Notes under the pieces: generated by a model
Told to the model about the DNA's origin: nothing
Database searches by the model: none
What the model saw: the letters and a program-made list of their open reading frames with translations, nothing else
Assembly (NCBI GenBank): GCA_002746535.1
Contig: NVWA01000018.1
Span: 58,203 to 122,202, forward strand
From: Planctomycetota bacterium
Lineage (GTDB): Bacteria > Planctomycetota > GCA-2746535
Direction: 5' to 3'
Length of the DNA: 64,000 bases
In this document: piece after piece, positions 49,506 through 64,000 of the stretch
Position numbering within the stretch: the first letter of the stretch is position 1
Layout of the letters: every line of letters starts with the position of its first letter
Position numbers and translations under genes: made by a program

Positions 49506-50632
49506 TGCGAAACTTCCTGCCTTACATTAAAGTCTAAGTCAATTATATCCGCTATTGTATCAGCTTGGACATCATTAAATTTATTTAAAGATTTTTCCAA
49601 TATAGTAAATATATCTAAAAACTTAATCTGTTTTTTCAAAAATTTATCAACCGCTATCTCATTTGCTGCATTTAAAACAGCACCTAAGCTTGGATGCGAT
49701 TTTCCAACCTCATAAGCATAATCTAAAGAACGCTTTAAAAGAGGGTTAGGTTCTCTAAATTCTAACTGATTAACAGAAAACCAATCTATTTTATTGTCAC
49801 TATTTGGTAATCTCTTTGGATAGGTAAGCGCATATTGGATGGGAATTTCCATACTTGGCAATCCAATTTGTGCTAAAGTTGACCCATCAACAAATTCAAC
49901 CATAGAATGCACAAGAGAACCTATTTGGACAATCATTTTTATAGATTCAAATGGAATACCAAATAACCAATGGGCCTCAATGATTTCCAGACTCTTATTC
50001 ATTAATGTTGAAGAATCTATCGTAATTTTTGACCCCATGTCCCAGGTTGGATGATTTAGAGCATCCTCAATTGTCACACACTTCAATTGCTCTTCACTAA
50101 AATTTAAAAATGGTCCACCTGAGCCAGTCAACCAAATATTCTGAACATCAGAATTATGATTGTTTAAACATTGAAAAATAGCTGAATGTTCACTATCAAC
50201 TGGAATGATTTCAGCTTGATGTTTCTTAGCCAGCTCCATCATCAATTGACCTGCCATTACTAGCGGTTCTTTGTTGGCAATTCCAATTCTTTTGCCAGCT
50301 TTCACCGCAGCAATAGTGGGTAATAAACCAACTGCTCCAACAATCCCAGTAATCACAATATCAACATCAGGATGAGAAGCCAATTCTTCCGCCCCTTCAT
50401 TTCCAGATATAATCTGAACATCACTAACTTTATTTTTGAGCTGTAAAGCTGCTTGATCATCTGTCAAACAAACTATTTGTGGTTTAAATTGTTTAATAAT
50501 ATTTTCAGCTTTAGAGACATTCTTGTGAGCAACAAAACCAAATAACCTAAATTGATCGGGGAAACGATTTAAAACTTCTAATGTGCTGTCGCCAATTGAA
50601 CCTGTACCACCTAATATGACAACATTTTTCAT
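49493..50632 (-). CDS. dxr: 1-deoxy-D-xylulose 5-phosphate reductoisomerase
   Basis: ILGGTGSIGDSTLEVL, IANKEPLVMAGQ, VDSEHSAIFQCL, LTGSGGPF, HPTWDMGSKITIDSSTLMNK. Confidence 0.95.
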   Translation of the reverse strand: MKNVVILGGTGSIGDSTLEVLNRFPDQFRLFGFVAHKNVSKAENIIKQFKPQIVCLTDDQAALQLKNKVSDVQIISGNEGAEELASHPDVDIVITGIVGAVGLLPTIAAVKAGKRIGIANKEPLVMAGQLMMELAKKHQAEIIPVDSEHSAIFQCLNNHNSDVQNIWLTGSGGPFLNFSEEQLKCVTIEDALNHPTWDMGSKITIDSSTLMNKSLEIIEAHWLFGIPFESIKMIVQIGSLVHSMVEFVDGSTLAQIGLPSMEIPIQYALTYPKRLPNSDNKIDWFSVNQLEFREPNPLLKRSLDYAYEVGKSHPSLGAVLNAANEIAVDKFLKKQIKFLDIFTILEKSLNKFNDVQADTIADIIDLDFNVRQEVSQWIQ

Positions 50633-51465
50633 TTTTTCTCAACAAATTCGTCTTTATTTTTAATAAGCTGACTATTTACCAGCCAAACCATTCCTTGAAG
50701 CCTAACATCTCCTTTAGCTAAACCTATCGCCTTATCGTAACTTTCATAATCAATTACAGGCAAAGAATCACTCAAAATTTTTGAAGCATTCACTACTAAA
50801 TCTACTCGTGCTGCCCTTGGGACATCATTTTCAGAACTGGACTCCCAATTAGGTAACCACTCAAGACCATTATAGTACTCAATCTTTAATAGTCGAATTC
50901 CTTTGTAAACTGAAAATCCGATTATTTCACTACTGGCTAAAGCAACCTGCGGAACTGCTCTTTCAGAATAATTCATTTTCGCTTCACAAGATGAACGCAT
51001 AAGATTTAAGCGATCACTCACTTCACTACCATCCGAATCGTAACGTTCTAAATAATAAATTACTTTACTTACTTCTGGGAATCCATTTTTTCTCGGGTCA
51101 AATAAGGGAGTTGCTGTATACAATTCTAAGCGACTCCCAACTAATCCACTTAACTCAGCCATTTCACCTTTAAACAAATGCATAGTAAGAGATCTAGTAT
51201 CTTGACCATTCTTTCTAAGTGTATGTGTTTTTACTTCTGCAGCAGAAATTGGTTGATCAATAATATAAAATTTATGGGCATACTTAATTTCTTTTAGCAA
51301 AAGAGACATGATTTGATTTGCAGATTTCGTCGGTGTAAATTGCTCACGAACGTAATGTTGATTTTTCAAAGTTGTAATAAGAATTTTAGAAATGATTATC
51401 ATCACAAAACCCATAATCATCATCGAAACCATGATCTCAATTAACGTGAATTGTTTTCTCAACAT
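50629..51465 (-). CDS. Pseudopilin, GspJ-like
   Basis: N-terminal methylation motif MLRKQ-FTLIEIMVSMMIMGF; position in gspFGHIJ-like order. Confidence 0.65.
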   Translation of the reverse strand: MLRKQFTLIEIMVSMMIMGFVMIIISKILITTLKNQHYVREQFTPTKSANQIMSLLLKEIKYAHKFYIIDQPISAAEVKTHTLRKNGQDTRSLTMHLFKGEMAELSGLVGSRLELYTATPLFDPRKNGFPEVSKVIYYLERYDSDGSEVSDRLNLMRSSCEAKMNYSERAVPQVALASSEIIGFSVYKGIRLLKIEYYNGLEWLPNWESSSENDVPRAARVDLVVNASKILSDSLPVIDYESYDKAIGLAKGDVRLQGMVWLVNSQLIKNKDEFVEKK

Positions 51466-51899
51466 TATTTATTATCTCTTAAGTCTTGGATTTCACTCAT
51501 TTTTTCAATTTCACCTGATGGAACAGAAACATCCGTCGTTAAGACATAAAAGCCATCCTCAGCACTATCAGAAGGAAAGGTTACTTTTAATAAAATATGA
51601 ACGAATGCTCCCAACTCATTATTTTCCAACCTTGATTTCATTTCAAACTTCAATGCTTCTGTTTGTTCTGGGGCAAGAAAGCCTTGATCTGTTCCAGGTA
51701 TTTCAGACCAATTCATCATTTTATACTCAACTAATTTTTTTTCAGCTAAAGGAACACTTTTGATAATACCTTCAGCCATTCTAATTTTGACCATATTGTT
51801 ATTCATAGTGATCATAATAGTACTGAGTGCAAAGCTTAGAATTACTATGGCACAAATTATTTCAATTAGATTAAATTTTTTATGATTCGACCTTTTCAT
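51465..51899 (-). CDS. Pseudopilin, GspI-like
   Basis: MKRSNHKK-FNLIEIICAIVILSFALS. Confidence 0.65.
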   Translation of the reverse strand: MKRSNHKKFNLIEIICAIVILSFALSTIMITMNNNMVKIRMAEGIIKSVPLAEKKLVEYKMMNWSEIPGTDQGFLAPEQTEALKFEMKSRLENNELGAFVHILLKVTFPSDSAEDGFYVLTTDVSVPSGEIEKMSEIQDLRDNK

Positions 51900-52453
51900 T
51901 GGACGACCTTTTCGAGCGTGTTTACTGGCTCAAAATATCCATCATGAAATATAACTTGCCCAGATAAAAAAGTAACTTCTAACGTTATCTCATTTTCGTC
52001 TTCATCAATCAGATGTATTCTATGTGGTGTGATATAACCACTAGGGTCAAAACGCACATCTAAGCTTTCATTATCTCTTGGAACGGATTGTCCAAAATCA
52101 TCATTAATTTCTTTAAACCTAACACCTTCAGGAAGATATCTCCTACCAAAACGCTCCGCTTCTTCAAAATTATTTTTCTTTTTATCTTCTTCCGAAACTT
52201 TCCATAAGAGCTGGACTTCATAATAATTTTCTGAGGTGTTATATCTCAATCCAAATAATTTACCTGTAGTAATAGAATTCTCATATAGATAGCCTATCAT
52301 TCCTGCAAGTCTGCGAGATTGGGAATTCATTTTAGCCCCTGGCAACATATGATTCAAACCAATAACAACCACAGTCGACATCAAAGCAAGAATTAAAATC
52401 ACAACCATTAACTCAACTAAAGAAAATGATGATCTATTATTTTTTTTAAACAT
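51896..52453 (-). CDS. Pseudopilin, GspH-like
   Basis: MFKKNNRSS-FSLVELMVVILILALMSTVVV. Confidence 0.65.
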   Translation of the reverse strand: MFKKNNRSSFSLVELMVVILILALMSTVVVIGLNHMLPGAKMNSQSRRLAGMIGYLYENSITTGKLFGLRYNTSENYYEVQLLWKVSEEDKKKNNFEEAERFGRRYLPEGVRFKEINDDFGQSVPRDNESLDVRFDPSGYITPHRIHLIDEDENEITLEVTFLSGQVIFHDGYFEPVNTLEKVVQ

Positions 52454-52478
52454 TTGGATTTTCGTTAAAAAGCATTCG

Positions 52479-52961
52479 CTACTCTGGTGTAATCGCTCCT
52501 AAACCACTATCATCAGAATCGCCAGTAGTAACAGCCCCGGCAGCTTCAGCAGCCAGATCAGAAATATAGACATCATCTTCCGTGCCTTCTTGACCATCTT
52601 CACCCATAGAAAAAACTTTATATGGGACATCTTTATCACCAGAATTCAATTGATACACATAAGAATTATACCAAGGATCTTCTGGTATTCCTCTCTCCTT
52701 TAAATAAGGGCCACCCCACCCTTTCACGCCTTCAGGTTTTTCAACCAAACCCTTTAAATCAGTTGGATATCTACCTGTATCCATTTTATAACTTGTGATC
52801 TCACTATCAAAAGCCTCTAAATTTGCTTTTGCTGTTGCAACTTTTGCTTTTTGAATTTTACCAATAGCAGCAATACCAACAACACCTGCCAACAAACCAA
52901 TTATCACTACAACAACCATCAACTCAACAAGTGAGAAATTAAAAGTTTTTAATTTTTTCAT
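52479..52961 (-). CDS. gspG: Major pseudopilin, GspG-like
   Basis: MKKLKTFN-FSLVELMVVVVIIGLLAGVVG; YPTDLKGLVEKP, GGPYLKERGIPEDPWYNSYVYQ typical of GspG. Confidence 0.85.
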   Translation of the reverse strand: MKKLKTFNFSLVELMVVVVIIGLLAGVVGIAAIGKIQKAKVATAKANLEAFDSEITSYKMDTGRYPTDLKGLVEKPEGVKGWGGPYLKERGIPEDPWYNSYVYQLNSGDKDVPYKVFSMGEDGQEGTEDDVYISDLAAEAAGAVTTGDSDDSGLGAITPE

Positions 52962-52972
52962 TATATACCCCT

Positions 52973-54214
52973 TTATGTTTTTAAATTACTCATTTCCATG
53001 ATTGGTAATAAAACTGAAACCAAAATCAAACCAACTATTACTGCCATGACGACAATCATAATTGGCTCAATTACAGAAACTATTTTAGAACTCGTAATTT
53101 CAATATCCTGATCATAGGATTCTGAAATTTTTTCTAACATATCTTCTAACTGTCCAGATTGCTCACCTACCGACATCATATAACCAACAACAGGTGGAAA
53201 AATATCTGATTTTTTTAACACAGAGGACATATCAGAACCTTCAATTACTGCATTTTTAACATCGACAATTACGTTTTCTAATAAGCGATTACCAATCACA
53301 TCTTTTACCACTACAAGGGCATCTAAAGCCGGAATACCCGTTCTTAATAATGTAGCAAATGTAGTTGTAAATTTAGAAACCGCTGATTTTTTCATCAACT
53401 CACCAATGAGAGGAGTTCTTAACTTTACCTTAGAAAACCATAAATCACCTTTTGGAGTTTTAATATATTTCATAAATACAATAAAAAGAAATACTAAAAC
53501 TATTAATAAAATTAAGCCGTAAATAGATAAACAAAAAGAGGAAATCCCCATAAATATTTGTGTAATAAGCGGCAATGGCATATTATTTTGAACAAAAAAT
53601 TGTGTGATACGAGGGAGAACAAAAAAGAGCAAAGCACTTACAACCATACAACCTATACATATAAGTACAACTGGATAAGCCAATGTCGCTTTTATTTTTT
53701 CTTCCATTATTTTCTTTTTATACATGTAAGTTGCTAGTCGATCAAGGACAGTATCTAACTTACCGGACAATTCTCCTGCACGGACCATAGCGATGTATAG
53801 TCCTGAAAACACATCTTTATGTTGAGACAAACAATCTGCTAGACTATCACCTTGCACCACTTGATCTAAAATTTGTCGGAATGTTGTTTCTAAATACACG
53901 TTATCGATTTGTTGTATTAATACACTCATCGAATCCGCTAAAGGAATACCGGATTTAAGTAATGTGGCTAATTGCCGCGTAATATTTATCAATTCCATTT
54001 TATTAATTCGATTGCCGAAAGATTTTACTCTTTCTAAAATGGAAAAGGAATCATCTGATTTTGAAATTTTGATCTCTGAAACACGAATGCCCATGTTTCT
54101 TAATTTTTCTCTGGCGGTATAATCAGAATCAGAAGTTAAAACTCCCTTTTTTTCAAAACCACCACCATCAAATCCTACATAATCAAATACGGGCACAGAG
54201 TTCCTTACTTTCAA
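52973..54214 (-). CDS. gspF: Type II secretion inner membrane protein GspF
   Basis: LATLLKSGIPLADSM, VRAGELSGKLDTVLDRLATY, FATLLRTGIPALDAL, VGEQSGQLEDMLEKI. Confidence 0.88.
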   Translation of the reverse strand: MKVRNSVPVFDYVGFDGGGFEKKGVLTSDSDYTAREKLRNMGIRVSEIKISKSDDSFSILERVKSFGNRINKMELINITRQLATLLKSGIPLADSMSVLIQQIDNVYLETTFRQILDQVVQGDSLADCLSQHKDVFSGLYIAMVRAGELSGKLDTVLDRLATYMYKKKIMEEKIKATLAYPVVLICIGCMVVSALLFFVLPRITQFFVQNNMPLPLITQIFMGISSFCLSIYGLILLIVLVFLFIVFMKYIKTPKGDLWFSKVKLRTPLIGELMKKSAVSKFTTTFATLLRTGIPALDALVVVKDVIGNRLLENVIVDVKNAVIEGSDMSSVLKKSDIFPPVVGYMMSVGEQSGQLEDMLEKISESYDQDIEITSSKIVSVIEPIMIVVMAVIVGLILVSVLLPIMEMSNLKT

Positions 54215-54510: not shown

Positions 54511-56109
54511 TTGATGAAAAAACATATGGTCTCACAATATAAACCAGAAAATGAATTTACAATTGACCTAATTAATGATTCTATTTGTACTACCCATTCC
54601 CCTTATACAGGAAAACTCTTTTATTTAGAAGAAAAAAATACTACCTCTGAAAACCCCTATGGTATAAATTTTACAATAAATCCAGATAGTGAAAAACTAA
54701 AAACAAATACCAAGAAAGGTTTTGAAAAATTTCAAAATATTTTGTTAGGTTCAGATAAATCAAAAACTTTTGAGGTGCTAAATGATTTATACCTCAATAA
54801 TGATTTTAGAGAATTAACCTACTGCTTATATCATATAAAAAAAAATGTTAGACATTGTGCCTTTTCTCTCTTATGTTCAAAAATTATTATTGACCAAACG
54901 ACGGCTCCTTTTTTTAAAGTTTTTTTCCGAAATGGCAACCCCATCTCGACTGTCTTAATTCCTGATGGCTATCAAAATAATTATATAAAATTTTTAGAGA
55001 GAGATTTCGTTAGATGGCTCACAGCTATAGAAAAAAATACCGGTCACGATGAACTTTGGAAAAAGTTTTCTGAAGAAGATTTATCTATAGCCAATATTGT
55101 TGAAACAATTCAAACAAAGGAAGATTCGGAGGGTGAGAACTCACAAGAAATCATATTCAATCAATCACCCGAAGTAAATTCAATTGTATCATGGTTAGCT
55201 ACTATACCTGAAGAAAATAGCACTATCATGTCAGATCAATCATCTATGAAAGCAGAAAAAATATATCGTCTACGTGGCAAATGGCTGCATTCTGTATCAA
55301 AACTAAAAACTGCCCATAAATTTATTACACGATTAATTGAAAAGTGGGACATGCAAGATGAATCAGAATTTACAAAATCATTCAAAATGTTTTTTAGTGG
55401 ATTAACCAGATCGGCAAAACAAGTATTTTTTATTTTTGGTGCTTCATCACAAGATGATAAAATTCAGTCACTATCATATCTCTATATCACATCCACAATG
55501 CCAATCGTGAATGATGACTTTTTCTCTACAAGAAAAAATGCACAAAATTATGTCAAGGCCATATACCAATCACAACTTTACATAAAAACCGAAACGCAAA
55601 ACTCTAATGCACAAAGTATCAATAATCATTTCGAAAATTTAATGACTCAATTAAAAGAAGTTGAAGAAATATATATTCCCACCCAAGAAACTCAAGATCC
55701 CTCATGGGCAATAGCAACTTTAGAACCCATTAAAAATGCAAAAGCATCCATAATGGTTGAGTACCCTCATCGAAGTCCGACATTTAATAAATATCATTTT
55801 GAAATTGAAATTCCCAAGCTACATTATTTAAAATATGCTGGTGAAGAAGGTACCTCTGCACATGAAATTAATGCCATCTCCGGATTGGCCATTGAATATC
55901 ATAGTGACAAATCAATGATTACGGCTAAACCACTAGAACTGACACCTTTTGACCTTCAATATAAAATGAGTTTCATGGCTTCCAGTAAATTTGACAGACG
56001 AGCACATAAAAAAGCCAAAATAATCGTCGTCAAGAAAGTGGTGAAAGAAAAAACACTTGAAGATATCTTCAATCTTGAATCAGATGAAGATCAAAAGCAA
56101 TCAGAATAA
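54511..56109 (+). CDS. Protein of unknown function (532 aa) upstream of prkA-yeaH-spoVR
   Basis: Intact long ORF, no recognised motif. Confidence 0.6.
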   Translation: MMKKHMVSQYKPENEFTIDLINDSICTTHSPYTGKLFYLEEKNTTSENPYGINFTINPDSEKLKTNTKKGFEKFQNILLGSDKSKTFEVLNDLYLNNDFRELTYCLYHIKKNVRHCAFSLLCSKIIIDQTTAPFFKVFFRNGNPISTVLIPDGYQNNYIKFLERDFVRWLTAIEKNTGHDELWKKFSEEDLSIANIVETIQTKEDSEGENSQEIIFNQSPEVNSIVSWLATIPEENSTIMSDQSSMKAEKIYRLRGKWLHSVSKLKTAHKFITRLIEKWDMQDESEFTKSFKMFFSGLTRSAKQVFFIFGASSQDDKIQSLSYLYITSTMPIVNDDFFSTRKNAQNYVKAIYQSQLYIKTETQNSNAQSINNHFENLMTQLKEVEEIYIPTQETQDPSWAIATLEPIKNAKASIMVEYPHRSPTFNKYHFEIEIPKLHYLKYAGEEGTSAHEINAISGLAIEYHSDKSMITAKPLELTPFDLQYKMSFMASSKFDRRAHKKAKIIVVKKVVKEKTLEDIFNLESDEDQKQSE

Positions 56110-56298
56110 TCAGAAATTATTAAGTGACGCGATTAAGTTTTCATTTAGCAACTTAATTTATTGTAGAACCAATGATTATAATTATTCAATTATCCTTATT
56201 CAAGAAAATTCAAACTTCTAATGGTCATTTGACGGCAAATAAGAACTTGAGTTCATCGCTACATTAATTCTAAATAATTTATTTTATGAAAATTTATT

Positions 56299-56327
56299 TT
56301 GATTTCATTTTGTAAATAGAGTACTAT
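56299..56327 (+). promoter_or_regulatory. Candidate sigma70-like promoter upstream of the PrkA gene
   Basis: TTGATT-N17-TACTAT, ~100 nt upstream of the ATG. Confidence 0.4.
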
Positions 56328-56425
56328 ACAGAACGTTATAAACCTTTAAAACGACTAAAAGATACGTTGCAATTCAACCGAGGAAATAACTATAACTAAA
56401 ATTCATTTCTGATAAGGGATATCAC

Positions 56426-58642
56426 ATGGATAAATCTTTACTGAGCATCATCGAAGAGTCTTCAAAAGATCAAAAAGAAGAAATAATTTCATTTAACGAT
56501 TACCTTGAACTTGTCAAAAAAGAACCTTGGGTAACAAGAAATTCATCTCAATTATTACATGATATGCTTTTGTCCAGTGGCACCACACACAAAGTAATCA
56601 CAGGCAAACCAATTAAACATCATTACAACTTTTTTGAAGACGAAAAATTTGTTGGGAAAAACATTGTTTACGGCCAACAAAAAGCCAAAGAAAATTTAGT
56701 CGAGAAAATTCACAATGCAAGTAAAGGCGGTGAATCAGCAAAACGATTATGGATTCTTCTGGGTCCACCAGGATCAGCCAAATCTAGATCCATGGATGCA
56801 ATTAAGCGGGCATTAAAAAAATACTCACAAAGCGAAGAAGGCAAAAACTACACCTTACTATTACCGACACTTGATGAGCGCTTAAAAGATAAAGCACTTT
56901 TTGAAGAGGATGGAATATATTACCTCCAAAGTCCATTATTCGAAAAACCTCTACAAATGATACCAGAAGAAAAAAGAGAAGAATTTGCAAATGAATTGAA
57001 CCAACTTGTCGATAAAAAATCATTAAAGGATTTTTTTAAAAGATCTCCCCATTACGATGATACATTTAATATCAACATCAGTGGTAGACTATCACCTTAC
57101 TCAGAATTTGTTCTAAAAGACTTCATGAAAACAAAAGACATAAGCTTTACAGAATTAACGGAATATGTAAAAGTTAAAAGAATGATTTTTGATCACAATA
57201 CTAAAAACGGTATTGGATCCTACACACCTAGAGACGAAAAAAGCCAGGAAGCGGGATCTCTCGTAGGCAATATTGATTATAGTTTATTACCAAAATATGG
57301 TAGCGAATCACATCCACTTGTTCATGACTATAAAGGAGAACTATGTGTAGGAGCAAACGGTTTTGTTGAAATTCACGAAATATTAAAATTAACTGACAGA
57401 TTCCTTTATGAATTGTTATTCGCCACACAAGATAGATTCTTTAAACCGGAAGGCCAACCGCCCATTCCATTTAATGGTGTTATTATTGGCCATACAAATT
57501 TTCATGAATTCAACATGTTCAATGAAAAGCCTGCATTTGAAGCACTACGATCTAGAACAACATTCATAGAAATGCCTTTATCTGTTAATTTTAAAGATGA
57601 AGAAAAAATATACCACATGACATACGCCAATGAACCTAGACAATGGAAAAAAGATCTAAAAAATATGGCGCACATGGCACCACACAGTATAGTATTTTTA
57701 AGTTTAGTCGCATCCATGTCTAGGTTATACCCTTCAAAACAAAACCCAAATTTATCGTTATTGCAAAAAGCATTAATATATGCTGGTCGAGCTGATAGTG
57801 GTGTCGATAACAATATGGCAAAAATGATATTAGAAGAATTTGATTATATTAAACCTTCTGAAGGAACTTTTGGTTTAGATCCTAGGTTCATTCAAAACGT
57901 AATAGAAAACACCGAACATTTTCAAATAAATGAATACTCAGCTAATCTTGAAAGAATAAAAGAAGAAGGCGAAAGTCATGCTGTATTGACATCCATCGCC
58001 CTCCAAAATCCATGCGTGACCCCTTTAGATTTATATGTAAGAATGGAACATTATTTAAAAGAAGTTTTCTCAACTCAAAAATCAAAGCTAAACATTTATG
58101 TTGAAAAAATAATGCCCCAAGCAAAAAATTGGATTTTAGGACAAATTTCCAGTGATGTATATAGTGCTATCCTAAGAGACGATAGTGTCATCGAAACAAC
58201 CTGGAAAAAATATACCGATCATGTCAGAGCATATGTGCACAATACCAAAGTCAAACATGAAGTTACTCAAGCGGAAGTACAGCCTGATGAAAAATTCATG
58301 CAAACCATTGAACAATATTTAGGTATCCCAGAGAAGGATGTTTTTAGAAAAGAATTGAGTGATGCCATTAGTAGTGTTAGTTATTCTGTTTTACTATCTG
58401 ACGAACCATCCTATCAAAGTGCTATTAAGAAATTTGTTTTTGAAAATGAATTCAAATCGGGTGAAAACATGAAGTTGCTAGGATGGATCAAAAGCGGAAC
58501 AAGTACGGCAAATGTCAACTCCAAGGAACAAGAACAATTGAATGACACAATTAAATATTTGATTGATCAAAAAAGTTACTGCGGTAAATGTGCCTTTCAG
58601 GCTATGGTGGTCACAGCAAATGCTTCTAGTATAGCATTATAA
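56426..58642 (+). CDS. prkA: PrkA family serine protein kinase (AAA+ type)
   Basis: SFNDYLELVKKEPWVTRNSSQLLHDML; Walker A LLGPPGSAKS; GFVEIHEILK, RFFKPEGQPPIPFNGVIIGHTNFHEF; followed by yeaH and spoVR. Confidence 0.88.
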   Translation: MDKSLLSIIEESSKDQKEEIISFNDYLELVKKEPWVTRNSSQLLHDMLLSSGTTHKVITGKPIKHHYNFFEDEKFVGKNIVYGQQKAKENLVEKIHNASKGGESAKRLWILLGPPGSAKSRSMDAIKRALKKYSQSEEGKNYTLLLPTLDERLKDKALFEEDGIYYLQSPLFEKPLQMIPEEKREEFANELNQLVDKKSLKDFFKRSPHYDDTFNINISGRLSPYSEFVLKDFMKTKDISFTELTEYVKVKRMIFDHNTKNGIGSYTPRDEKSQEAGSLVGNIDYSLLPKYGSESHPLVHDYKGELCVGANGFVEIHEILKLTDRFLYELLFATQDRFFKPEGQPPIPFNGVIIGHTNFHEFNMFNEKPAFEALRSRTTFIEMPLSVNFKDEEKIYHMTYANEPRQWKKDLKNMAHMAPHSIVFLSLVASMSRLYPSKQNPNLSLLQKALIYAGRADSGVDNNMAKMILEEFDYIKPSEGTFGLDPRFIQNVIENTEHFQINEYSANLERIKEEGESHAVLTSIALQNPCVTPLDLYVRMEHYLKEVFSTQKSKLNIYVEKIMPQAKNWILGQISSDVYSAILRDDSVIETTWKKYTDHVRAYVHNTKVKHEVTQAEVQPDEKFMQTIEQYLGIPEKDVFRKELSDAISSVSYSVLLSDEPSYQSAIKKFVFENEFKSGENMKLLGWIKSGTSTANVNSKEQEQLNDTIKYLIDQKSYCGKCAFQAMVVTANASSIAL

Positions 58643-58670
58643 TTAGGTTGAAACTTACATAGGAATTTAA

Positions 58671-59741
58671 ATGGAAACCAAAATTAACTCCGATGAGTCA
58701 GAAGGTGCTTTCAATGAGTTCATTGAAGAGCAACTAGAAGATTTGGTAGATCAAATAATTAATGATGGTAATTTAAATAATATTGGTGATCAAGGTAGTG
58801 ATATTATTGTTGAGATCGATGGCATAACGCCTCCACAATTTGTCTATGATAACGAAGGTCAAGGAGGTAGTGGTGGAGCCGGTGCAGGACCAGGAGGAAA
58901 TGGTGGTAAAATGAAATTCAATCTTCCATTCAAAAAATTAATGGAATTAATTTCTTCACGATTAAGGTTACCAAATTTAACTAAAGAAGGCCAAGGCGCA
59001 ATAAAGGAATTATCATATGAGTTCAGGACATATGCACCCGTGGGAGTCTTGCTAGACAAAAGAAGAACTTTTAAAAGAGCGCTTAGAACTAGTGTTGCCA
59101 CAAAGGTATATGATCCTGCCAATGGTAAATTTGAATTTGCTATTTCTCGAAAAGACAAACGCTACAAACAACCTGAAATAGTTGAAAAACCAAAATATAA
59201 AGCCGTTGTATTCTATATGGGTGATATTTCTTATTCAACATATGGTGAAAGACTTGAGTTAGAAAAAAATCTGGTAAATTTCATTCAAAATTGGCTCGAT
59301 TTTAATTATGGACCAAAAAATGTTGAACATCGATTTTTTGTTCATGATTCAAGTGCCTATGAGGTTACTAAAGATGACTTTTATAATATTAATAATGCAG
59401 GTGGTACAAAAGCTTCAATAGTATTTGAGCTAGTTTCCCAAATAGCAACCAGCGAATATGATGCAAACTCTACAAATTTTTATGGATTTTATTTTGGTGA
59501 TGGCGAACTATTCGACAAAGATCCAAAAGATATCATGGAAATATTAGAAAATGATATGCGGCCTTGGTTTAATAGAATTGGAATCGTAGAAGTTATACCC
59601 AGCAACATCAGCAATCTTATTAAAAATGCACGTTCAAAATATCCAAATGATTCCATTGTACGATTGGCTGAAATAAAAAATAAAAATCAAACTGTAGAAG
59701 TTATCAAGAAGCTCTTCGGAGGTGTCTATGCGAAGCATTAG
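58671..59741 (+). CDS. YeaH/DUF444 family protein
   Basis: Gly-rich linker GQGGSGGAGAGPGGNGG, VVFYMGDISYSTYGERLELEKNLVNFIQNWL, RFFVHDSSAYEVTKDDFYNINNAGGTKAS. Confidence 0.9.
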   Translation: METKINSDESEGAFNEFIEEQLEDLVDQIINDGNLNNIGDQGSDIIVEIDGITPPQFVYDNEGQGGSGGAGAGPGGNGGKMKFNLPFKKLMELISSRLRLPNLTKEGQGAIKELSYEFRTYAPVGVLLDKRRTFKRALRTSVATKVYDPANGKFEFAISRKDKRYKQPEIVEKPKYKAVVFYMGDISYSTYGERLELEKNLVNFIQNWLDFNYGPKNVEHRFFVHDSSAYEVTKDDFYNINNAGGTKASIVFELVSQIATSEYDANSTNFYGFYFGDGELFDKDPKDIMEILENDMRPWFNRIGIVEVIPSNISNLIKNARSKYPNDSIVRLAEIKNKNQTVEVIKKLFGGVYAKH

Positions 59742-61353
59742 TACCGATCCAGAATTACAATTTATTTGGGAGCGAGTTCAGCATTTCGCTAAAGGGTATA
59801 ATCGAACTTTACCTGAGATGCGATTTTTTATATTAGAAGCCATGGAATTTGCATCACTATTAGAGAAAAACGTTTATCCCGTTAGCCCAGTAAATATCTG
59901 GGAAGGGAAAAGCATGGTCACTAAAAAACACCGCATTGAATCGGGACAAGAATCTTCCATCTATTATGAAGTTGTTCAAACTGGAAATCCATCATATGGC
60001 TATTTGAATCATACAAACAATGCGATGATGCAAGCGTCTGTTATGGCACACGTTGTAGGCCATTGTGAATTTTCAGAATTAAATGTGCTGCATGATTCTG
60101 ATTATGATAGAACCGAAAAAATAATGCATTTAGTCAGAAAGGTCAATCTTGGTAAATATCAAATGGGTGATATTAACTATATGAATTTCTGGAATGCCTG
60201 CGAATCAATGGCGCCTCTTATCAACCCACATAGCCAATTTAATATAAAAAATTCAATTCATTTTGAATCACACATCAATACAAATGATGATGATATTGAG
60301 CAAAATCAAGAAAAAGAAGTTGCTCTTTTGAACCCCTATTCAGATACACTAAATGAAGTGCTTCAAAAAGGTGACAATAAATATGATTTTGAAAAAGATT
60401 TAAAAAAGAAAAGTAAACAGGAATCACTAAGCAGAAAAGGTTATACGATTAAGGCTCCCTGCCAGGATATTTTTGGATTCTTAAAACTATTCTCACCAAT
60501 GAGTACTGGGGAATCTTCTATTCTCGAATATCAGTATGAAGTACGTAAACACCAGAATTTCGTTGGCTTAACTCAAATCATGAATGAAGGCTGGGCGATG
60601 TACTGGGAAAAAAAGATCATGATAGATCTTTTTAAAGAAAAAACAGTTACAGGAATCATTGATTATTCAAAAGTTTTTAGTGGCGTTTGCTATCCAAGAC
60701 CTTATTTCCAACGTAATCCATATCACCTTGGCTATCACATGTGGCTACACATAGAAGAGCAGTTGCGAGATGGGAAACTTTCTATTGAGTATCATGAAGA
60801 AACTTCCTTAGAGAAAAAAGAAAATTGGTCAAAAGGAGGTTCAAAAGATCCCATAAAAGATATGACCCATATCGTCAAATCCTGTACCGATTATGAATTT
60901 TTGCGACGTTATCTAACACCGCAACTAACCCAAGAACTTCATTTAAATAGAATCAACAAACAACAAGCGATGCAAATGGGTATCACAAAACAAGATATAA
61001 TCGCCGAAGATCAACGTTGGGTATGGATCGACCCTGAACCTGTTAAAGAACAAATGTTAAACTTCTTTGTTCATATGTATCGCCCAAGGCTATATATTAT
61101 CGATTCAGACTTTCAAGATGGCGGACTACTTTTATTCAATAGAAATGATGGTAGAAAACTTAAAAAAGACTGGATTAAGCCAACCATGAAAAATATGCAT
61201 TTAATTTGGAAAGCACCCATTGGCTTAATAACAGAAAATACTTTATACCAATATTCTGCCAGTAATTTTAAAGAGTCAAAAATAAAAGAATTGACGTTTG
61301 AAGAAGTCAAAGAAAGACTAAAAGCAGGAGACAAACCACTAAAAATTTCATAG
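59722..61353 (+). CDS. SpoVR family protein
   Basis: QASVMAHVVGHCEFSELN, MNEGWAMYWEKKIM, NPYHLGYHMWLHIEE, CTDYEFLRRYLTPQL. Confidence 0.92.
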   Translation: MSMRSISTDPELQFIWERVQHFAKGYNRTLPEMRFFILEAMEFASLLEKNVYPVSPVNIWEGKSMVTKKHRIESGQESSIYYEVVQTGNPSYGYLNHTNNAMMQASVMAHVVGHCEFSELNVLHDSDYDRTEKIMHLVRKVNLGKYQMGDINYMNFWNACESMAPLINPHSQFNIKNSIHFESHINTNDDDIEQNQEKEVALLNPYSDTLNEVLQKGDNKYDFEKDLKKKSKQESLSRKGYTIKAPCQDIFGFLKLFSPMSTGESSILEYQYEVRKHQNFVGLTQIMNEGWAMYWEKKIMIDLFKEKTVTGIIDYSKVFSGVCYPRPYFQRNPYHLGYHMWLHIEEQLRDGKLSIEYHEETSLEKKENWSKGGSKDPIKDMTHIVKSCTDYEFLRRYLTPQLTQELHLNRINKQQAMQMGITKQDIIAEDQRWVWIDPEPVKEQMLNFFVHMYRPRLYIIDSDFQDGGLLLFNRNDGRKLKKDWIKPTMKNMHLIWKAPIGLITENTLYQYSASNFKESKIKELTFEEVKERLKAGDKPLKIS

Positions 61354-61375
61354 GTTAAATTCTAAATAGGAGATC

Positions 61376-61404
61376 TTGATATTCTATTTTGAATGTGGTA
61401 TAGT
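61376..61404 (+). promoter_or_regulatory. Candidate sigma70-like promoter between spoVR and the second PrkA-like gene
   Basis: TTGATA-N17-TATAGT, 45 nt before the ATG at 61449. Confidence 0.6.
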
Positions 61405-61448
61405 CTATTTAAACAGCATCTTACGAAAGAAGATTGAAAGGTTAAGTC

Positions 61449-63347
61449 ATGACTGATCCCTATTTAAAAAGTATCTTAAATTATCATCGTCGAAACAACA
61501 TGACTTTCACTGAATTTATTGATCGATTTCTTGAAGAGCCTCAAAAACATTTATACACATCATCAACATTAATATCAGAATCAATTCGACATTTTGGTTT
61601 TGAAATCGTAGTTAGGGCTGGGCAACCCGTAATATCTTATAATATTTTTAAAGATTTTTTCTCAAATGGAATCAATGCCGTATATGGCCAAGACCACTGC
61701 ATCAAACATATTGTGGAAGTCATTGATTCAATTGGTAAAGAGTCCGGACCAAATCGAGGTATCGTCCTTGTTGGACCACCAGCATCTGGCAAAACAAATA
61801 TTATTGATTTAATTTCTCTAGCACTTGAGCAATACACAAAAGAAAATAGCATTAAACTCTATAGCTTTTATTATCGATTTGAAGATAATGAAAACCCTGA
61901 AAAAGCAGTTGAAATAAGATCTGCTTTTTACCATAACCCACTTTTATTATTCACCAACTTATTACATCAAGAAGATGGCGTTACAAAACCGAGGCTAGCA
62001 CTATTTGATTATATAAATAGTAAAAGGAAACCGAAAGACCAAATAATATTTCCTTCTTATTATCAAAATGCCAGTTTAGATAAACGTAATTTAGATATTA
62101 TTGAAAGCCTAATTCAAAATCCAAACAATCAGGAATACTCTCTATTTGATATTTTTGAAAAATATGTACGCATAGAAGAAATCGAATTCTCAAATGCTCA
62201 AGGAAATGGCATAGCCAACATAGATGATTTAACAAAGTTGCGTGTATCAATCAAACCAATGGCAGCGAGAGAAGATGCCATTAGAATCCTAAATCAACAT
62301 TTACCTACAAAACTACTTTATCAATATCAAGGAGCATTAGTTTCAGCTAGTAGAGGCTTACTTCACATGCATGATGCCTTTACGGAGGTTACTCAAGAAA
62401 CTGAATATAAACCACTTTTGATGTTACTAGGTAGCGGGAAAATCTCTTTGGATAGCACGCAAGCATCTTTAGATACAACCGTCATAGTCACAACTAATAT
62501 AGAAGAAATGGTACAGTTAGAAAAACAACTGACCTCCTCAAAATTGTTAGATCGAATTGAAAAAGTTGCTGTTAATTATTTATTAGATGCAAATGCAGAA
62601 ATAGAAATTCTCAAAAGAGATATGGCCAACATGCAAGATAAATTTGAAGTTGATCCAAATCTTTTGACCATCGCATCATGCTTCTCCGTAATGACGCGAT
62701 TATCTCCACCAAATCGTAAAAAGTTCCCTGCTGATTGGTCAGATGAAAAGAAGATTCTATATAATAATATTACTCCTGAACAGAAACTTTTTATTTATAG
62801 CTGCAAATCTGAAGATCCAGCCAATACAATTAAAAAACTTCCTCATTGGCATCCATTTCGAAATCAAGCCATCAAGATGAAAATAGACATTCATGATACT
62901 AAAGTTTTACATGAATTAATTCGTGAATATCCAGATGCCTTTACCTTGGAACAATCAGGCGTGTTTACTACAAAAGAATTAGGTCTCGTTGATGACGATT
63001 TTATGCGAGAATTATGGAATGAGCATTTCCCAAGTGAAGGTGAAAAAGGGATTTCAGTTAGGCAATTGCAAAACATCATGAGAAATACAATTTCCTCCTC
63101 AGATGGTAGAAGAATAGAAGTAAGCACCTTTATCAATCAACTGCATATTCTAATGGCAGAAGGCTCCACAATTCACCACTGGCTCAATGACGAAGATAAG
63201 ACCCCTAAAACTAGAAAAGCTATTCGCGGAAGAACCATTGGCAAAACAGAATTGAAAGAAGGCCAAGGAGATTACTATGAGTATAAAGGCTTAATTAAAG
63301 TTACAAAAGCTATTTATTCAAACATCATTCGATCAGAGATCACTTAA
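61449..63347 (+). CDS. Second, divergent PrkA-like ATPase
   Basis: TFTEFIDRFLEEPQKHLYTSSTLISESI parallels the PrkA N-terminus; VYGQDHCIKHIVEVI...GIVLVGPPASGKTN (Walker A); ASRGLLHMHDAF; C-terminal charged region. Confidence 0.75.
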   Translation: MTDPYLKSILNYHRRNNMTFTEFIDRFLEEPQKHLYTSSTLISESIRHFGFEIVVRAGQPVISYNIFKDFFSNGINAVYGQDHCIKHIVEVIDSIGKESGPNRGIVLVGPPASGKTNIIDLISLALEQYTKENSIKLYSFYYRFEDNENPEKAVEIRSAFYHNPLLLFTNLLHQEDGVTKPRLALFDYINSKRKPKDQIIFPSYYQNASLDKRNLDIIESLIQNPNNQEYSLFDIFEKYVRIEEIEFSNAQGNGIANIDDLTKLRVSIKPMAAREDAIRILNQHLPTKLLYQYQGALVSASRGLLHMHDAFTEVTQETEYKPLLMLLGSGKISLDSTQASLDTTVIVTTNIEEMVQLEKQLTSSKLLDRIEKVAVNYLLDANAEIEILKRDMANMQDKFEVDPNLLTIASCFSVMTRLSPPNRKKFPADWSDEKKILYNNITPEQKLFIYSCKSEDPANTIKKLPHWHPFRNQAIKMKIDIHDTKVLHELIREYPDAFTLEQSGVFTTKELGLVDDDFMRELWNEHFPSEGEKGISVRQLQNIMRNTISSSDGRRIEVSTFINQLHILMAEGSTIHHWLNDEDKTPKTRKAIRGRTIGKTELKEGQGDYYEYKGLIKVTKAIYSNIIRSEIT

Positions 63348-63911
63348 CAACCCAATATTGCTCCTGAAAAGTTTTACCGCTATGGCAAGTAGGATAATTC
63401 CAAACACTTTTCGGATAATGGCAATCCCGCCTTTACCAAGTAGTTTTTCGATTTTAGTAGTTAACTTTAAAACGGCATAAACCAATATCATATTTAGCAC
63501 AATAGCAATTACAATATTGATGGATGCAAATTCTGCTCGGAGAGATAAAATTGAAGTCATAGAACCTGCTCCGGCAATAATTGGAAACGCCAACGGAACA
63601 ATGGAAGCCGTTTCGGGAATATCATCTTTGTATAATTTAATTCCCAAAATCATTTCGAGTGCCATAAAAAACAAAATGAATGAACCAGCAATGGCAAATG
63701 AATTAACGTCAATCCCAATTACACTTAGAATAGATTCACCCAAAAAGAGAAAGGCAATCATAATAAAAAGAGAAACGATTGATGCTTTTTCGGTTTGTAA
63801 ATGCCCTACTTTCCCTCTTAATTCGATGATCAACGGAATTGACCCGATGATGTCAATTACCGCAAAAAGCACCATAGAAGCGGTTCCTATTTCAACCCAA
63901 TTTAACCCCAT
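63333..63911 (-). CDS. MarC family membrane protein
   Basis: AVIDIIGSIPLIIEL, AIAGSFILFFMALEMILG, VPLAFPIIAGAGSMTSIL. Confidence 0.88.
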   Translation of the reverse strand: MGLNWVEIGTASMVLFAVIDIIGSIPLIIELRGKVGHLQTEKASIVSLFIMIAFLFLGESILSVIGIDVNSFAIAGSFILFFMALEMILGIKLYKDDIPETASIVPLAFPIIAGAGSMTSILSLRAEFASINIVIAIVLNMILVYAVLKLTTKIEKLLGKGGIAIIRKVFGIILLAIAVKLFRSNIGLLSDL

Positions 63912-64000
63912 AATCGTTCTATAGTTTTAGGAAAATGTTCGTGTTCTAAATTGTGAATTTTTGCTGCAAGGTCATCAGACGAATCAGTGTTTAAAATATT
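63902..64000 (-). CDS. purN: Phosphoribosylglycinamide formyltransferase, C-terminal fragment (runs off window)
   Basis: Minus-strand reading ...NILNTDSSDDLAAKIHNLEHEHFPKTIERLWG* matches the PurN C-terminal pattern (LAxxIhxxEHxxyPxxi). Confidence 0.6.
   Translation of the reverse strand, partial: NILNTDSSDDLAAKIHNLEHEHFPKTIERLWG

Follow-up and report, generated by a model that had tools for sequence, protein, structure and literature searches.

Introduction

PrkA, YeaH (DUF444) and SpoVR make up a common but little-understood bacterial stress system, which is found in Escherichia coli, Bacillus and haloarchaea, as well as in over half of the genomes that we sampled from the phylum Planctomycetota. 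When E. coli is starved of nitrogen, mutants in yeaG and yeaH have similar phenotypes, and the AAA+ residues of the PrkA protein YeaG are needed (PMC4664914). There is dispute over the activity of PrkA, which has been regarded as a kinase, a protease or an AAA+ ATPase that remodels other proteins. An in vitro kinase activity of YeaG is cited in PMC4664914, but purified Bacillus anthracis PrkA showed neither kinase nor protease activity and was assigned to the AAA+ proteins that form rings (PMC13001217); because of the latter result, we regard the label “kinase” as doubtful. AAA+ rings of another family, MoxR, remodel their clients together with VWA proteins (PMC13036017). A haloarchaeal signature contains two PrkA homologues that always occur with DUF444 and SpoVR, the two prkA genes being adjacent (PMC3102087). 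Here we describe a bacterial locus with two prkA genes in a different order, prkA1–yeaH–spoVR–prkA2. It lies in a stretch of 64,000 nucleotides (nt) from a Planctomycetota genome (contig NVWA01000018.1, positions 58,203 to 122,202), hereafter called the window.

Results

A second prkA gene recurs beside yeaH and spoVR in unrelated bacteria

An earlier sequence-only reading of the window had listed five open reading frames (ORFs) at this locus, and we confirmed the coordinates and the plus-strand orientation of all five. Among them, prkA1 (56426-58642; 738 amino acids [aa]) encodes a protein that matches the Pfam families AAA_PrkA (PF08298; 2e-54, 185 bits, cut-off 25) and PrkA C-terminal (PF06798; 6e-31, 108 bits, cut-off 25). 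It is followed by yeaH (58671-59741; 356 aa), whose VWA-like product matches DUF444 (PF04285; 9e-40, 137 bits, cut-off 27), and by spoVR, whose product matches SpoVR (PF04293; 6e-38, 131 bits, cut-off 27); the three genes are adjacent and in the canonical order. After a gap of 95 bp comes prkA2, listed as an ORF of 632 aa (61449-63347), of which 61449-63342 is genuine and gives the first 631 of about 830 codons. The suspicion that this second ATPase is related to PrkA was borne out by a clear match to AAA_PrkA (8e-17, 61.7 bits against the cut-off of 25). Its score for the PrkA C-terminal domain, 22.2 bits against 25, comes from a copy shortened by the assembly. PrkA1 and PrkA2 are the only PrkA homologues of the source genome.

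An alignment of two PrkA2 proteins, together with two peptide patterns, served as query against 85,462 species genomes and yielded 20 loci as a lower bound, one of them belonging to G004, a genome of the source phylum. The loci come from SAR324, Deltaproteobacteria, Gammaproteobacteria (including Sedimenticola and Chromatiales), Spirochaetales, Candidatus Polarisedimenticolaceae and other bacteria. One contig (L076) was too short for synteny and was set aside. At all 19 remaining loci, yeaH, spoVR and prkA2 are adjacent and co-directional, and at 15 of them prkA1 stands directly upstream, giving the order prkA1–yeaH–spoVR–prkA2. The other four all belong to Spirochaetales (L070, L071, L072 and L081); in these, prkA1 lies on a different contig and yeaH–spoVR–prkA2 are kept together. 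Each of the ten genomes checked for PrkA content holds one PrkA1, one PrkA2 and no ordinary PrkA. Full-length PrkA2 relatives at the matching operon position in unrelated phyla are 53 to 58% identical to the PrkA2 of locus L065. No gene beyond the four is common to all 20 loci.

Within the source phylum, the module was present in 2 of 395 genomes. G004 carries all four genes in identical order, and a further genome, G036, has matching PrkA1, YeaH and SpoVR as far as its contig end. The frequency in the class of locus L080 was 1 of 274, the single case being the query itself. The four genes are thus co-inherited, with a conserved order where prkA1 is linked. Conservation of the second prkA beside spoVR, which the sequence-only reading had made a test of its proposal, therefore extends across unrelated phyla. 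Since prkA2 is linked with prkA, yeaH and spoVR in unrelated bacteria, its product appears to be a true functional component of the module in a less common form with four genes.

Just downstream of prkA2, the gammaproteobacterial group carries a gene with a metallo-beta-lactamase fold (L074:12512-13153 and five further loci).

PrkA2 lies apart from canonical PrkA in the family tree and has a changed acidic motif

We placed the two proteins in trees of 74 and 76 PrkA sequences, which were obtained by quick searches and contain some long branches. PrkA1 (n = 15) and PrkA2 (n = 21) each form an exclusive clade with support of 100. The canonical proteins fall on the side of PrkA1, and 18 free-standing paralogues of the phylum on that of PrkA2, a split that also has support of 100. 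PrkA2 is therefore a member of a separate half of the family, although its exact sister group is uncertain because of the quick searches and long branches. The SpoVR and YeaH proteins of the module likewise fall each on their own side of a branch from the canonical ones (Shimodaira–Hasegawa-like approximate likelihood ratio test, 100 and 99, respectively). Because all four proteins form exclusive clades, the four-gene subtype is coherent, rare and patchy as it is.

The Polarisedimenticolaceae loci (L074 and L076; Acidobacteriota) are nested among gammaproteobacterial sequences on very short branches, which reflects either a recent transfer or mis-binned contigs.

The two PrkA proteins of the module differ in a short acidic motif. 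PrkA1 has the P-loop GPPGSAKS, an E-x-x-E motif and a C-terminal CxxC, whereas PrkA2 has the P-loop GPPASGKT and H-I/M-H-D in place of E-x-x-E. The P-loop Lys is kept in every sequence (15/15 PrkA1, 21/21 PrkA2), and PrkA2 also retains the sensor-1 TTN and the DR pair. E-x-x-E is present in all 15 PrkA1 proteins, in 20/20 canonical PrkA proteins and in three added references (E. coli, Bacillus, Thermomicrobium and Cupriavidus are among those covered). By contrast, all 21 PrkA2 proteins have H-x-x-D and none has the E-x-x-E of ordinary PrkA. The free-standing paralogues share the D at the second position (18/18) and vary at the first (H in 7/18, E in 8/18). In the sequence of a solved PrkA, we counted about 43 residues from the acidic motif on to the sensor-1 Asn, which places the motif where Walker B is expected. 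Because H-x-x-D replaces E-x-x-E in every copy, we favour the reading that PrkA2 is a partner of PrkA1 whose catalysis is altered.

Two other regions were compared. Most canonical PrkA and PrkA1 sequences have a pore-loop aromatic-Gly pair that PrkA2 lacks, but we give this difference little weight because the pair is also missing from three canonical PrkAs, those of E. coli, Thermomicrobium and Cupriavidus. At the position aligned to K426 of YeaG, PrkA1 and PrkA2 both have N and 19/20 canonical rows have D, in a C-terminal alignment that is weak; the Lys equivalent expected of a Ser/Thr kinase was thus found in neither PrkA1 nor PrkA2.

The early end of prkA2 is most likely an assembly artefact

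The length of 632 aa first given for the second PrkA did not hold up against the rest of the assembly. Contig C18 opens with 99 nt that are identical to window positions 63244-63342 (plus strand) and diverges afterwards; at this point the genuine prkA2 would run on outside the window. On C18 the frame remains open for a further 199 residues (L054:100-698), a stretch 54% identical to the PrkA2 end of G004. The full protein would thus have about 830 aa (599 + 231), and its relatives are about 828 to 858 aa long.

The DNA to the right of 63,342 looks foreign. Within the window (63343-64000) it contains the end of marC and the start of purN, both on the minus strand, and beyond the window it continues with a nitroreductase-like gene, fabF, rnc, an IPExxxVDY-family gene, pyk and an M42 peptidase gene. 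We take this gene order and the IPExxxVDY family to be typical of Bacteroidota. The source genome has a second RNase III gene on contig C54. In the stretches that were read, ambiguous bases are confined to the right side of the joint. The tetranucleotide distance from the host is 0.208 for the right part versus 0.11 to 0.13 for most host segments, one host segment reaching 0.209. Based on the 99-nt overlap with C18, the in-frame extension and the foreign-looking right flank, we conclude that the contig was most likely joined wrongly to Bacteroidota-like DNA at 63,342, and that neither the stop codon at 63345-63347 nor the overlap with marC is real. Less probably, the joint stems from a rearrangement that some members of the population truly carry. 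The right end of the window and the remainder of contig C70 (L055:11545-19565) are probably contamination in the assembly. The locus illustrates how a contig misjoin can give a conserved protein a falsely truncated look.

YeaH and SpoVR retain the residues of their canonical counterparts

PrkA1, YeaH and SpoVR of the window are intact, each within a divergent clade of its own family. YeaH keeps D185-x-S187-x-S189, T246 and D277, residues of the metal ion-dependent adhesion site (MIDAS) type that are common to canonical YeaH. SpoVR keeps H110-x3-H114 and N288-E-G-W-A292 (NEGWA), also common to the canonical protein. Its divergence is visible in the Pfam score of 131 bits, versus about 320 to 480 for ordinary full-length SpoVR of the phylum; SpoVR_C (PF24755) scored 12.8 bits against a cut-off of 27.6. 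A structure model of SpoVR (predicted local distance difference test [pLDDT], 50) was not used, and a profile search for solved SpoVR structures returned only designed TIM barrels over a 36-residue stretch, which we regard as spurious.

The spoVR ORF runs from a GTG at 59722 to 61353 (543 aa). We place the start most likely at the ATG at 59728 (59728-61353, about 541 aa), because this codon corresponds to M3, which is invariant in the SpoVR alignment. The overlap of yeaH and spoVR noted by the sequence-only reading is real, but its size would then be 14 nt and not 20 nt.

The upstream ORF is best treated as a neighbour

The fifth ORF (54511-56109, plus strand) encodes 531 or 532 aa, the listed TTG at 54511 being directly followed by an ATG at 54514. 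It had been proposed as an accessory protein of the module, a role for which we found no counterpart elsewhere. The protein belongs to no family in Pfam, NCBIfam or PADLOC. For the locus, PADLOC gave weak P-loop-type matches only, and a link to defence systems was set aside. No relative was found in 201 genomes of the phylum, among which the source genome is the sole representative of its family and order, or near the other module copies at the 20 loci. Because of this lack of relatives and the gap of 316 bp before prkA1, the ORF is best treated as a neighbour, probably not a component of the module. A scan for promoters and terminators gave signal at chance level. Further upstream, on the minus strand (50629-54214), ORF translations inspected by eye suggest a pseudopilin-like gene cluster with a type II secretion/type IV pilus inner-membrane protein.

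Discussion

How could two PrkA proteins work with one YeaH and one SpoVR? We consider it an even chance that the locus represents a four-gene PrkA–YeaH–SpoVR subtype whose second PrkA is functionally different and works as follows. PrkA1 would be the ATP-hydrolysing AAA+ motor. PrkA2 would bind ATP through its intact P-loop, hydrolyse it poorly or not at all, and serve, within the PrkA1 ring or docked on it, in a structural or regulatory capacity, remaining closest to YeaH and SpoVR. YeaH, via its VWA/MIDAS domain, may act as an adaptor between the ring and SpoVR, which would be a client or effector in starvation or stress. The logic resembles that of MoxR/VWA machines or of the I and D subunits of Mg-chelatase, which we use as analogies only. 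We infer complex formation, the difference in ATPase activity and the role of SpoVR from the sequences. More tentatively, an active PrkA1 and a pseudo-ATPase-like PrkA2 could share one hetero-oligomeric AAA+ assembly that remodels or loads SpoVR through YeaH and forms a distinct, horizontally spread type. If so, the motor and regulatory roles of PrkA would be split between paralogues. The sequence-only reading had suggested a hetero-oligomeric AAA+ kinase, or a kinase with an antagonist or regulator; a mixed AAA+ pair or a regulator would fit the altered acidic motif.

Several points weigh against this reading of PrkA2 as an altered partner. Alignment to RavA, in which hhalign covers the P-loop only, did not identify the catalytic Glu of Walker B. 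A structure model of PrkA2 built from 21 sequences has a mean pLDDT of 60 and is worst over the acidic motif; a fold search with this model, whose AAA+ core is poor, gave no match. An exchange of E for D can be mild. PrkA2 might form a homo-oligomer of its own. Moreover, the system does not need one operon to fix the PrkA1/PrkA2 ratio, as prkA1 is unlinked in Spirochaetales.

In the strongest alternative, PrkA2 would be active as an AAA+ ATPase in its own right, with a separate ring that serves a second step or a second client of the pathway. This is possible, if somewhat unlikely. The P-loop, sensor-1 Asn and DR are kept in all copies, the protein of about 830 aa has its own conserved C-terminal region, and D-type paralogues standing free of yeaH and spoVR in many genomes of the phylum suggest that members of this half can work by themselves. 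An invariant H for E at the first acidic position (21/21) and the strict one-to-one co-occurrence with PrkA1 in the ten genomes checked speak against this alternative. That PrkA2 inhibits or antagonizes PrkA1, the kinase-plus-antagonist idea of the sequence-only reading, perhaps by capping or poisoning its rings until stress, seems improbable: a shared operon and an altered catalytic motif would suit this role, but nothing points to inhibition over assistance, and in Spirochaetales it is PrkA1 that has moved while PrkA2 remains with YeaH and SpoVR, which is better explained by a structural tie to these two proteins. We give very little credence to an expanded operon of all five genes, which share a strand and lie side by side, given that homologues of the upstream ORF are absent from the 201 phylum genomes and the 20 module loci and that 316 bp separate it from prkA1. 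Least credible is a decayed or incidental duplicate, as the early stop might suggest, since the misjoin accounts for the truncation and full-length relatives occupy the same operon place in unrelated phyla.

A two-PrkA subtype with a naturally altered acidic motif amounts to an experiment of nature, in which a comparison of ATPase activity and assembly would help to show how central the AAA+ cycle is to the activity.

Comparison with known systems

The canonical prkA–yeaH/yhbH–spoVR set (yeaGH and ycgB in E. coli, a Thermomicrobium plasmid, and most SpoVR-bearing genomes of the phylum) shares with our locus its families, its gene order and the MIDAS-type and H-x3-H/NEGWA residues. The canonical three-gene loci examined have no PrkA2 alongside, and the window proteins fall in clades separate from theirs.

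The free-standing PrkA paralogues (e.g., L037 and L046) lie in the same half of the PrkA tree as PrkA2 and have D at the second acidic position. They differ in that they are not beside yeaH or spoVR, are 22 to 33% identical to PrkA2 among the matches listed, and in 8 of 18 cases keep E at the first position. These paralogues (L035-L047 and L049-L053) are about 743 to 852 aa long and occur in many genomes of the phylum; all 18 come from SpoVR-bearing genomes, versus 114 of 201 genomes overall. For one of them, L037, the distance to a VWA-domain gene is about 2.7 kb. Full-length PrkA homologues are also present in Thermus phages (e.g., phiYS40, TMA and phiLo) and in uncultured phage records of about 600 kb.

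MoxR AAA+/VWA pairs (NorQ/NorD and RavA/ViaA) and the I and D subunits of Mg-chelatase likewise combine an AAA+ protein with a VWA partner, and the D subunit of Mg-chelatase is an altered AAA+ paralogue. PrkA itself is not a MoxR member, and its alignment to RavA by hhalign is limited to the P-loop.

We found no description of the bacterial order prkA1–yeaH–spoVR–prkA2 in the open-access literature that was searched, and a search of plasmids for haloarchaeal sequences found none, so that the haloarchaeal cluster (PMC3102087) is compared here by its description. It, too, combines two PrkAs with DUF444 and SpoVR, so this set of proteins was already known; the bacterial arrangement differs from it in that the prkA genes form an adjacent pair there, whereas here prkA2 lies downstream of spoVR.

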